DNA of 64,000 nucleotides. Source: Pseudoselenomonas ruminantium (lineage in GTDB: Bacteria > Bacillota > Negativicutes > Selenomonadales > Selenomonadaceae). Of this stretch, positions 272 to 62,174 are shown piece after piece. Below the pieces are notes generated by a model that was not told the DNA's origin, made no database searches, and saw nothing but the letters and a program-made list of their open reading frames with translations. The stretch is from NCBI GenBank assembly GCA_015058655.1, contig SVBX01000014.1, positions 1-64,000 of the forward strand, written 5' to 3'. The translations under genes and the position numbers were made by a program. The stretch's first letter is position 1. Every line of letters begins with the position of its first letter.

Positions 272-439
272 TTAGGGCGTGTTGATTAATTCACTCAGCC
301 CATCTTCACGGGTCTTGACTGTCCCTGCTGCGTTGACAAATCCTCGACATAGCACCGCTATGCCTCCGGTTTGTCGCCTTGCAATGGACAGCCAATCCCC
401 GCAAATCTGGGCCAAGTTCATTTAATCAACACGCCCTAA
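272..439. repeat. Family C palindromic element (~168 bp)
   Basis: The ends are TTAGGGCGTGTTGATTAA and its reverse complement, so the terminal inverted repeats are at least 18 bp and perfect. The two halves remain complementary, imperfectly, all the way to an apical CATAGC-ACC-GCTATG palindrome, so the whole element can fold as a single long hairpin. The apex matches that of the family B elements, although the ends differ. No transposase gene is present. The element ends about 12 bases before the ribosome-binding site of the nucleotidase gene, so it lies in that gene's leader or promoter region. A MITE-like non-autonomous element is the most likely explanation. Confidence 0.8.
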
Positions 440-7020: not shown

Positions 7021-7197
7021 AAGCCTTCCCCTTAGGGGGCGCGTAAGCGCGGGAGCCCAGTGGGCTCCCTGGGAGGTGCCCCGTTAGGGGCAGATGAGTT
7101 GGAGAGTTCTCTCGTTTATCTGCCTTATCTTGTCCATTTGCACCTCATCCGTCAGCCCTTCGGGCTGCCACCTTCCCCTCAAGGGGAAGGCTTTTTT
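7021..7197. repeat. Family A palindromic element, copy 2
   Basis: The outer arms are AAGCCTTCCCC and GGGGAAGGCTT, with the same internal hairpins as copy 1. It begins 10 bases after the macB stop codon. Its right end, CCTTCCCCTCAAGGGGAAGGC followed by TTTTTT, has the form of an intrinsic terminator and could end the efflux operon transcript. Confidence 0.85.
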
Positions 7198-9584: not shown

Positions 9585-9591
9585 ATGCCGT

Positions 9592-9716
9592 CTGTTCATT
9601 TTCTTTGGTGCAAAGAAAACGAACCAAAAGAAACAGCGGCCCCGGTTTGATCCTCAAACGCGAAGGGCCGCTTTTGGCGCTCATCCCTGAGCGCCGGGCA
9701 TTTGTCTTGGGGTTTA
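9592..9716. repeat. Family E hairpin element, copy 1
   Basis: It starts with TTTTCTTTGGTGCAAAGAAAA, a perfect nine-base stem with a three-base loop, then CGAACCAAAAGAAA, and carries two further hairpins (CGGCCC...GGGCCG and GGCGCTC...GAGCGCC). Related copies lie at 14791-14945 and, inverted, at 16362-16482. It follows the sstT stop codon. Confidence 0.75.
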
Positions 9717-14781: not shown

Positions 14782-14790
14782 AAGTTTCGG

Positions 14791-14945
14791 CTGTTCATTT
14801 TCTTTGGCGCAAAGAAAACGAACCAAAAGAAAACGCGGCCTGGAATTCATCCAGAATTCGCACGGCCGCATGGCGCCCATCCATGGACGCCGGGGTTCGG
14901 GAGTTCGACCTCGCCGCCTTTGACGGCATCGGGGTTCGGATGATT
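14791..14945. repeat. Family E hairpin element, copy 2
   Basis: It begins with CTGTTCATTTTCTTTGGCGC and contains the perfect stem-loop TTTTCTTTG-GCG-CAAAGAAAA, followed by CGAACCAAAAGAAAA and GC-rich hairpins (GCGGCC...GGCCGC; GGCGCCCATCC...GGACGCC). The left end is closely similar to copy 1, while the inner part diverges. It follows the phosphosugar mutase stop directly. Confidence 0.75.
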
Positions 14946-20023: not shown

Positions 20024-20028
20024 TAATT

Positions 20029-20167
20029 GCCTTCCCCTTGAGGGGAAGGTGCCCCGCAGGGGCGGATGAGGTGTTGCGTTTCAGGTTATGTTAGCTAAAC
20101 GAGCCAGGTTCCACCTCATCCGTCACTCCTTCGGGCTGCCACCTTCCCCTCAAGGGGAAGGCTTTTT
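20029..20167. repeat. Family A palindromic element, copy 3
   Basis: This is a short, clean copy: GCCTTCCCCTTGAGGGGAAG at the left, GGCGGATGAGGTG, a variable centre, CACCTCATCCG, and CTTCCCCTCAAGGGGAAGGC with TTTTT at the right. It sits six bases after the dedA stop and its right end resembles a terminator. Confidence 0.88.
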
Positions 20168-31850: not shown

Positions 31851-31911
31851 AAGTTGATTCTTGCATTTATTTTTCAGAAATTAGATTTAAGATACAGGCA
31901 GGAAATTTGAT

Positions 31912-32071
31912 AAGGAACTGGCAAGAAATAAATTGAGCATAATGCGAAGGATTAGTTTGGCTAGACAAGGCGGAGGAAGGAGGCATAGCGGTGCTATGTC
32001 GACTGACGACAACGCAGTATAGACGAACTAAGACAAGCAGAATGCTTAATTTATTTCTGAACAGTTCCTAA
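31912..32071 (+). repeat. Family B palindromic element, copy 1
   Basis: The element of about 160 bp is bounded by AAGGAACTGGCAAGAAATAA and TTATTTCTGAACAGTTCCTAA. Its two halves are imperfectly complementary throughout and meet at CATAGC-GGT-GCTATG. By eye it is identical to the copies at 40046 (inverted) and 62015. It lies 49 bases upstream of the htrA start codon and separates walJ from htrA. Confidence 0.88.
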
Positions 32072-39941: not shown

Positions 39942-40045
39942 TGCCTTGGGTAATATTTCACTAAAGCAGATATTTTATGTAAAATATAAAAGGGAATAGG
40001 AATGCTTACGACGAATATATGACCGTTAGCGTAAATAAATACCAT

Positions 40046-40205
40046 AAGGAACTGTTCAGAAATAAATTAAGCATTCTGCTTGTCTTAGTTCGTCTATACT
40101 GCGTTGTCGTCAGTCGACATAGCACCGCTATGCCTCCTTCCTCCGCCTTGTCTAGCCAAACTAATCCTTCGCATTATGCTCAATTTATTTCTTGCCAGTT
40201 CCTAA
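40046..40205 (-). repeat. Family B palindromic element, copy 2 (inverted)
   Basis: It reads AAGGAACTGTTCAGAAATAA at the left and TTATTTCTTGCCAGTTCCTAA at the right; its reverse complement appears identical to copies 1 and 3. It lies 30 bases before the rseC start codon, in the opposite orientation relative to the downstream gene than the other two. The ORF-track start at 40019 reads through it and is not credible. Confidence 0.88.
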
Positions 40206-53776: not shown

Positions 53777-53904
53777 ACAGCGTAATCGGCAGCAAAGAAT
53801 GTTGGGCAATTCCCTGGAAAAGCAAGCACGGAGCCATGCAAACTGTGGCTTCGTGCTTGCTTCTTGTGGCAAAGCCGGGCTGCATAAATTGGGCTGCATG
53901 TCAA

Positions 53905-54078
53905 AAAGCCTTCCCCTTGAGGGGAAGGTGCCCCGTTAGGGGCAGATGAGGTGGGGCATTATCTCGTTTATCTGCCTTATCGTGTTTATTCGCACCTCAT
54001 CCGCCAGCCTTCGGCTGTCACCTGTCCAGGGTGTCCACCGGACACCCGCGGCTTCGCCGCCCCCTCAAGGGGAAGGCT
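53905..54078. repeat. Family A palindromic element, copy 4
   Basis: AAAGCCTTCCCCTTGAGGGG at the left and CCCCTCAAGGGGAAGGCT at the right enclose the GGGGCAGATGAGGTG/CACCTCATCCG inner arms. The right half carries an extra hairpin segment (GGGTGTCCACCGGACACCC, GGCTTCGCCGCC) also seen in copy 6. It lies about 130 bases after the kinase stop codon. Confidence 0.87.
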
Positions 54079-61852: not shown

Positions 61853-61860
61853 ATAGCAAA

Positions 61861-62001
61861 AGCCTTCCCCTTGAGGGGAAGGTGCCCCGACAGGGGCGGA
61901 TGAGGTGGGACGCCATGAGTTATGCTGACTGAACTGGTCAGCTGGATTGCTCCTCATCTGTCAGCTTTTGGCTGTCACCTTCCAGAAAAGGGGAAGGTTT
62001 T
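61861..62001. repeat. Family A palindromic element, copy 5
   Basis: AGCCTTCCCCTTGAGGGGAA and GGTGCCCCGACAGGGGCGGATGAGGTGGG open it, and CTCATCTGTCAGC with AAAGGGGAAGGTTTTTG closes it; the right arm is more degenerate than in other copies. It begins eight bases after the ABC permease stop codon and lies next to a family B element. Confidence 0.82.
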
Positions 62002-62014
62002 TGTGTTTCTTGCT

Positions 62015-62174
62015 AAGGAACTGGCAAGAAATAAATTGAGCATAATGCGAAGGATTAGTTTGGCTAGACAAGGCGGAGGAAGGAGGCATAGCGGTGCTAT
62101 GTCGACTGACGACAACGCAGTATAGACGAACTAAGACAAGCAGAATGCTTAATTTATTTCTGAACAGTTCCTAA
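62015..62174 (+). repeat. Family B palindromic element, copy 3
   Basis: It appears identical to copy 1 at 31912 over the full length, in the same orientation, bounded by AAGGAACTGGCAAGAAATAA and TTATTTCTGAACAGTTCCTAA. It lies 13 bases beyond family A copy 5 and 88 bases before the usp start codon. Confidence 0.88.

Follow-up and report, generated by a model that had tools for sequence, protein, structure and literature searches.

A covarying hairpin core shared by MITE families with different ends in Pseudoselenomonas ruminantium and other bacteria

The window analysed here, i.e., the whole stretch of 64,000 nt from Pseudoselenomonas ruminantium (SVBX01000014.1, positions 1-64,000, forward strand), contains elements of two palindromic families, B and C. 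The family C element is 162 bp long, bounded by GGGC...GCCC, and occupies positions 275-436 with its core strand on the minus strand and GGGCGTGTTGATTAA as terminal repeats. It is flanked by TA target duplications at 273-274 and 437-438, and positions 272-439 read TTAGGGCGTGTTGATTAA...TTAATCAACACGCCCTAA. Its core (327-382, minus strand) is composed of AAGGCG-ACAAACCG-GA-GGCATAGC-GGT-GCTATGTC-GA-GGATTTGT-CAACGC, and scores 77.9 bits with R1, a covariance model built from 12 cores of the window's class only, and 17.7 bits (E 0.039) with R2, a covariance model built from B-type cores only. Family B is represented by three elements. The first, 155 bp long with GGAACTG terminal repeats, lies on the plus strand at 31914-32068 between TAA duplications (left 31911-31913, right 32069-32071), has an empty site in the congener G001, and carries a core at 31965-32018 (plus) that reads AAGGCG-GAGGAAG-GA-GGCATAGC-GGT-GCTATGTC-GA-CTGACGA-CAACGC. 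The other two are located at 40048-40202 (minus; core 40098-40151; TAA at 40045-40047 and 40203-40205) and 62017-62171 (plus; core 62068-62121; TAA at 62014-62016 and 62172-62174), and all three B cores are found by both R1 and R2.

The 21-nt apex of these elements, GGCATAGCGGTGCTATGTCGA, has exactly four matches in the window (344 minus, 31982 plus, 40114 minus, and 62085 plus), while dinucleotide shuffles of the window gave none and none was expected. When as many as three mismatches are allowed, the genome (3.1 Mb) contains 48 apex copies, and the reversed pattern in the same search gave 0. AAGGCG on one arm and CAACGC (equivalent to GCGTTG) on the other are present in both families, yet the AGGAACTG ends of C and the AGGGCGTG ends of B are unrelated past their first bases. 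Both elements fold strongly as RNA (z-scores: C, -13.9; B, -12.7). The genome holds about 24 near-identical C copies, about 17 B copies, older B2 copies, a D type with TAAGGAAACACTGATTAA ends, and single divergent elements, and in every listed copy one strand shows an identical order of parts: AAGGCG, a spacer of 7-8 nt, GA, an 8-bp stem closed by a 3-nt loop, GA, a spacer, and CAACGC. Congeners and other genera contribute further end types on the shared core. The first-pass annotation had noted that C and B converge on a common apex from different terminal arms; this is confirmed, and the true extent of the sharing is larger than first stated.

Other repeats are present in the window as well. 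A second, unrelated family (AAGCCTTCCCCTTGAGGGGAAGGTGCCCCGTTAGGGGC...CACCTCATCCG), with palindromic, G/C-rich and partly decayed stems, occurs at 2229-2304, 7028-7196, 20025-20167, 53904-54009, and 61858-61909. A 65-nt repeat (TGTTCATTTTCTTTGG..CAAAGAAAACGAACCAAAAGAAA), an imperfect palindrome, is found at 9589-9653 and 14788-14852, the two copies being 86% identical.

Families B and C are MITEs. They are 155-162 bp long, contain no ORF, end in terminal inverted repeats, and create target-site duplications of fixed length: TA stands on both sides of 23/23 intact C copies, with the outer bases free, and the identical flanks of 16/16 young B copies are TAA (10) or TTA (6). Precise insertion is demonstrated for both families by empty sites in congeners, where the joined flanks hold a single TA or TAA (C: L183 and L195; B: L187 and L188). 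Only for C was an autonomous element with matching ends found. In congener G001, an 806-bp insertion sequence (IS; L158:1845-2650) has exactly the ends of C and, between them, a broken open frame for an IS5-family transposase (PF13340, DUF4096, E 9e-23; PF01609, DDE_Tnp_1, E 5e-12), and it contains no hairpin core. Since this IS and the C MITE overlap only in their ends of about 17 bp, C consists of IS5-type ends plus a hairpin and did not arise by internal deletion of the IS. A C remnant lies about 180 bp from this IS. No autonomous IS with B ends was found in a search for one; a candidate in L450 turned out to be a MITE copy adjoining an unrelated transposase. Likewise, no Streptomyces IS with the ends of the core-bearing MITEs was found near them. 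The earlier suggestion that the ends determine insertion specificity is supported by these data, with C inserting at TA and B at TAA or TTA, and with the C ends matching an IS5-family IS.

The core extends far beyond this genome. Within the window's class, the Negativicutes, R1 matched 114/351 sampled genomes, representing 35/102 genera and 13 families. Family C had no matches in a plasmid search, and BLAST of plasmids with the B core alone retrieved Streptomyces plasmids, in which 20 records aligned over nearly the same 50 nt and had other ends, two of the copies being flanked by TAA and TTA duplications. Scanning GTDB genomes with a pattern that leaves out both known apex types detected further elements in Actinomycetota (Streptomyces, Streptacidiphilus, Frankiaceae, Nocardioides, Propionibacteriaceae, Streptosporangiaceae, and Frigoribacterium) and in Lachnospiraceae, Oscillospiraceae, other Clostridia, and Succiniclasticum. 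Separate matches in Sinorhizobium and Brachybacterium were due to chance. In Clostridia and Actinomycetota, the same 49-nt core is joined to new ends, and there some of its letters were set by the search pattern and their conservation is not independent. The pattern left free the stem pairing, the NN/NN pairs, and most of the GA step beside the stem, and these are the positions that covary or are conserved. In addition, R1, despite being built from the window's class only, matches an actinomycete genome at E 2e-15. Copy numbers reach 80 in Streptomyces sp. TSRI0107, 70 in Nocardioides speluncae, and 61 in a Clostridiales MAG, and only 6/297 sampled Actinomycetota genomes contain the core. This patchy, multicopy distribution is as expected for mobile elements. 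A phage search gave no convincing match. In Streptomyces sp. TSRI0107, an inverted pair of core-bearing elements surrounds a single oxidoreductase-like gene (L249:3498-4607), resembling a composite transposon. The first-pass annotation had proposed a superfamily with a shared apex and divergent ends, to be challenged by a covariance-model search of genomes; the proposal survived, as other core-bearing elements were recovered and further end types appeared in the class, in Clostridia, and in Actinomycetota.

That annotation had also called for a test of compensatory changes in the arms, and such changes were found in the apical stem. In an alignment of 25 diverse cores, 88.7% of the cells are paired, compared with 63.3±1.8% after shuffling, and both sides of a pair have changed in 82 cells, compared with 27±5. 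The covariation score of 0.707 (0.232 in shuffles, sd 0.026) was reached by 0/500 shuffles and lies far above all slid controls. The central stem pair varies among AU, CG, GC, and UA. Among 97 unique cores, 91.9% of the cells are paired, compared with 67.8% (sd 0.9) and with 27-50% in slid controls. GA/GA steps are present in all families, with GC/AA and GA/GA interchanging.

The core also exists in variants. A long apex with the loop GACGCGAAGCTAGTCC...GGG is seen in C copies (L023, L025, and L026) and in B2 copies (L077-L080), which suggests that apical domains have been exchanged between families. Copies L025 and L026 stop in an insertion within this loop. In another family of the class (L089, L098, and L111, from G034), the apex is kept with the spacers GAAAGAAAACGCA and GGCTTTCTGAC, the AAGGCG/CAACGC loop is apparently absent, and these copies apparently represent a third core type. 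Insertions in the apex loop (L023, L025, L026, and L077-L080) would be understandable if the apex served as an att-like or target site, with repeated insertion there making the families alike. This is very improbable, as most copies are uninterrupted, the families have in common the whole core of 49-56 nt rather than the loop alone, and the inserted elements are absent from the apex in most genomes.

Outside the core, the arms carry a signal that differs between the strands. RNA folding of 15 full elements predicted recurrent GA/GA internal loops (two in C, three in E, four each in B3 and L140), and the complement strand forms much weaker folds than the core strand (e.g., -76 vs. -102 and -56 vs. 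-86 kcal/mol). Because energy models favour G-A, the outer arms were aligned with a scoring neutral to it. Mismatches on the core strand, counted over unique contexts as purine-purine/pyrimidine-pyrimidine, were 138/20 in B, 178/44 in C, and 531/290 in Actinomycetota plus Clostridia. When each arm family was reduced to one representative, purines were in excess in 35/37 families and the reverse held in one (totals of 222 vs. 31; sign test p 1e-9), most of the purine-purine mismatches being G·A. This excess is new, and a neutral palindrome is expected to have none. It therefore appears that one strand is under selection in folded form, whether RNA or single-stranded DNA (ssDNA).

The same results bear on the view that common descent is the whole explanation, i.e., that all families diverged from a single old MITE, the ends having drifted or been swapped and the functionless core having been kept by gene conversion between copies. 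Clan 1 (families C, D, E, and F) does have related ends finishing in TGATTAAATGA, and long-apex variants occur in both B2 and C, as exchange would give. Nevertheless, compensatory double changes across phyla need selection, as does an excess of purine-purine mismatches on a single strand among arm families that share little sequence. Contradicted by both the covariation and the mismatches, this explanation is improbable and largely refuted.

If selection acts on one strand, the question is which molecule is folded. The core strand might act as an RNA hairpin, from read-through or from a weak transcript of its own, with a widespread ribonuclease or RNA-binding protein as its partner. This would agree with the strand specificity of the arm mismatches and with the far greater stability of the core strand when folded as RNA, and tandem G-A steps are known to stabilize RNA helices. 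Correia elements, with the same loop and layout, have also been reported to bind RNase III (PMC2649163). However, the elements are oriented without preference for the direction of adjacent genes, either in their own genome (12 sense, 17 antisense) or in other genomes (16/14), and no curated Rfam family matches, so we regard an RNA function as a plausible possibility at somewhat less than even odds. Outside the own genome, convergent gene pairs around the elements number 22 and divergent pairs five. Alternatively, the core strand might fold as ssDNA, on the lagging strand, in a cruciform, or in a transposition intermediate, thereby pairing the ends into one double-stranded end, and so aid mobilization or evade hairpin nucleases. 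The direction of transcription would then be irrelevant to the copies, as observed, and 14/16 copies lie on the same replication strand in one actinomycete. Yet within the window's family the replication-strand bias is inconsistent: 12/22 in G139 (with the origin placed by GC skew), 11/23, and 38/62 (resting on an assumed origin), and the IS with C ends carries no core. We therefore consider a function as ssDNA rather unlikely. Given the lack of gene-orientation preference and the inconsistent replication bias, neither a read-through transcript nor ssDNA of the lagging strand can be considered proven.

Overall, we favour the interpretation, with a probability of roughly 0.7, that these are two-part, non-autonomous DDE-type MITEs carrying a conserved hairpin module with a function on one strand. 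The IS-derived ends would set the transposase that moves the element and the site where it lands; for C the source is an IS5-family IS and the target is TA, and the TAA/TTA target of B would imply a different transposase. The middle is a hairpin module common to many end types, consisting of the AAGGCG/CAACGC internal loop, the tandem G-A steps, and the covarying 8-bp apical stem, between arms that differ by family but keep their mismatches purine-purine on one strand. Such mismatches suggest that the relevant strand works single-stranded and folded. As RNA or transient ssDNA, it may be bound or tolerated by a putative, widespread host factor that would promote persistence or spread of the element; the long hairpin may, for instance, be kept stable yet interrupted, so that RNase III or SbcCD spare it. 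It is worth noting that a read-through RNA function would predict a gene-orientation preference, and that its absence counts against the interpretation we favour. The first-pass annotation had named a transposase or integrase among the candidates for a common factor recognizing the loop. A shared enzyme of this kind is unlikely because the IS with C ends lacks the core, and the one-strand mismatches agree more closely with a partner that binds RNA or ssDNA. More broadly, and only tentatively, the strand-specific hairpin may be the common functional core of MITEs in at least two phyla, and probably of Correia elements too, recognized by a putative conserved RNA- or ssDNA-binding factor, with new families arising when new IS ends are fitted to the core.

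Among known systems, REP, REPIN, and BIME sequences are likewise abundant intergenic palindromes, REP and REPIN sequences being mobilized by a REP-associated tyrosine transposase. REPs are units of 20-40 bp tagged by GTAG or CGTC (PMC3733652), whereas the elements described here are 155-162 bp long and bear the marks of DDE-type MITEs: inverted repeats at both ends, duplicated targets, and empty sites. The Correia (NEMIS) elements of Neisseria are more similar, being long hairpin MITEs that end in TA and contain a directional core with ACAAGGCG and CAACGC arms around a small apical stem. Neisseria-type Correia elements from viral contigs (L333-L345) read ACAAGGCG...GTACAAATAGTAC...CAACGC on one strand, with the AAGGCG/CAACGC segments at the same places. 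By contrast, their ends are TATAGTGGATTAA, rather than the GGGCGTG or GGAACTG of C and B, and the spacer and apex differ. As R2 found no match in Correia loci, the relation of Correia elements to the shared core is only a lead, and the resemblance in sequence is no more than suggestive. We found no account of the shared core in open-licence papers, although absence there is not proof. Bacterial MITEs derived from IS5 resemble the present elements in being short and ORF-less, with IS5-family terminal inverted repeats and TA/TNA-type duplications, and in occupying intergenic regions in many copies. They differ in that the interior here is a conserved, covarying hairpin module found across different ends and phyla, rather than a remnant of the IS. 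MITE interiors are usually regarded as decayed leftovers of transposons. Here it is the interior that is conserved and the ends that are replaceable, across phyla, with compensatory changes and selection on one strand. The core signature and its covariance model could unify scattered repeat families, and it becomes possible to test directly why bacterial MITEs take the form of long hairpins, which is an old question.
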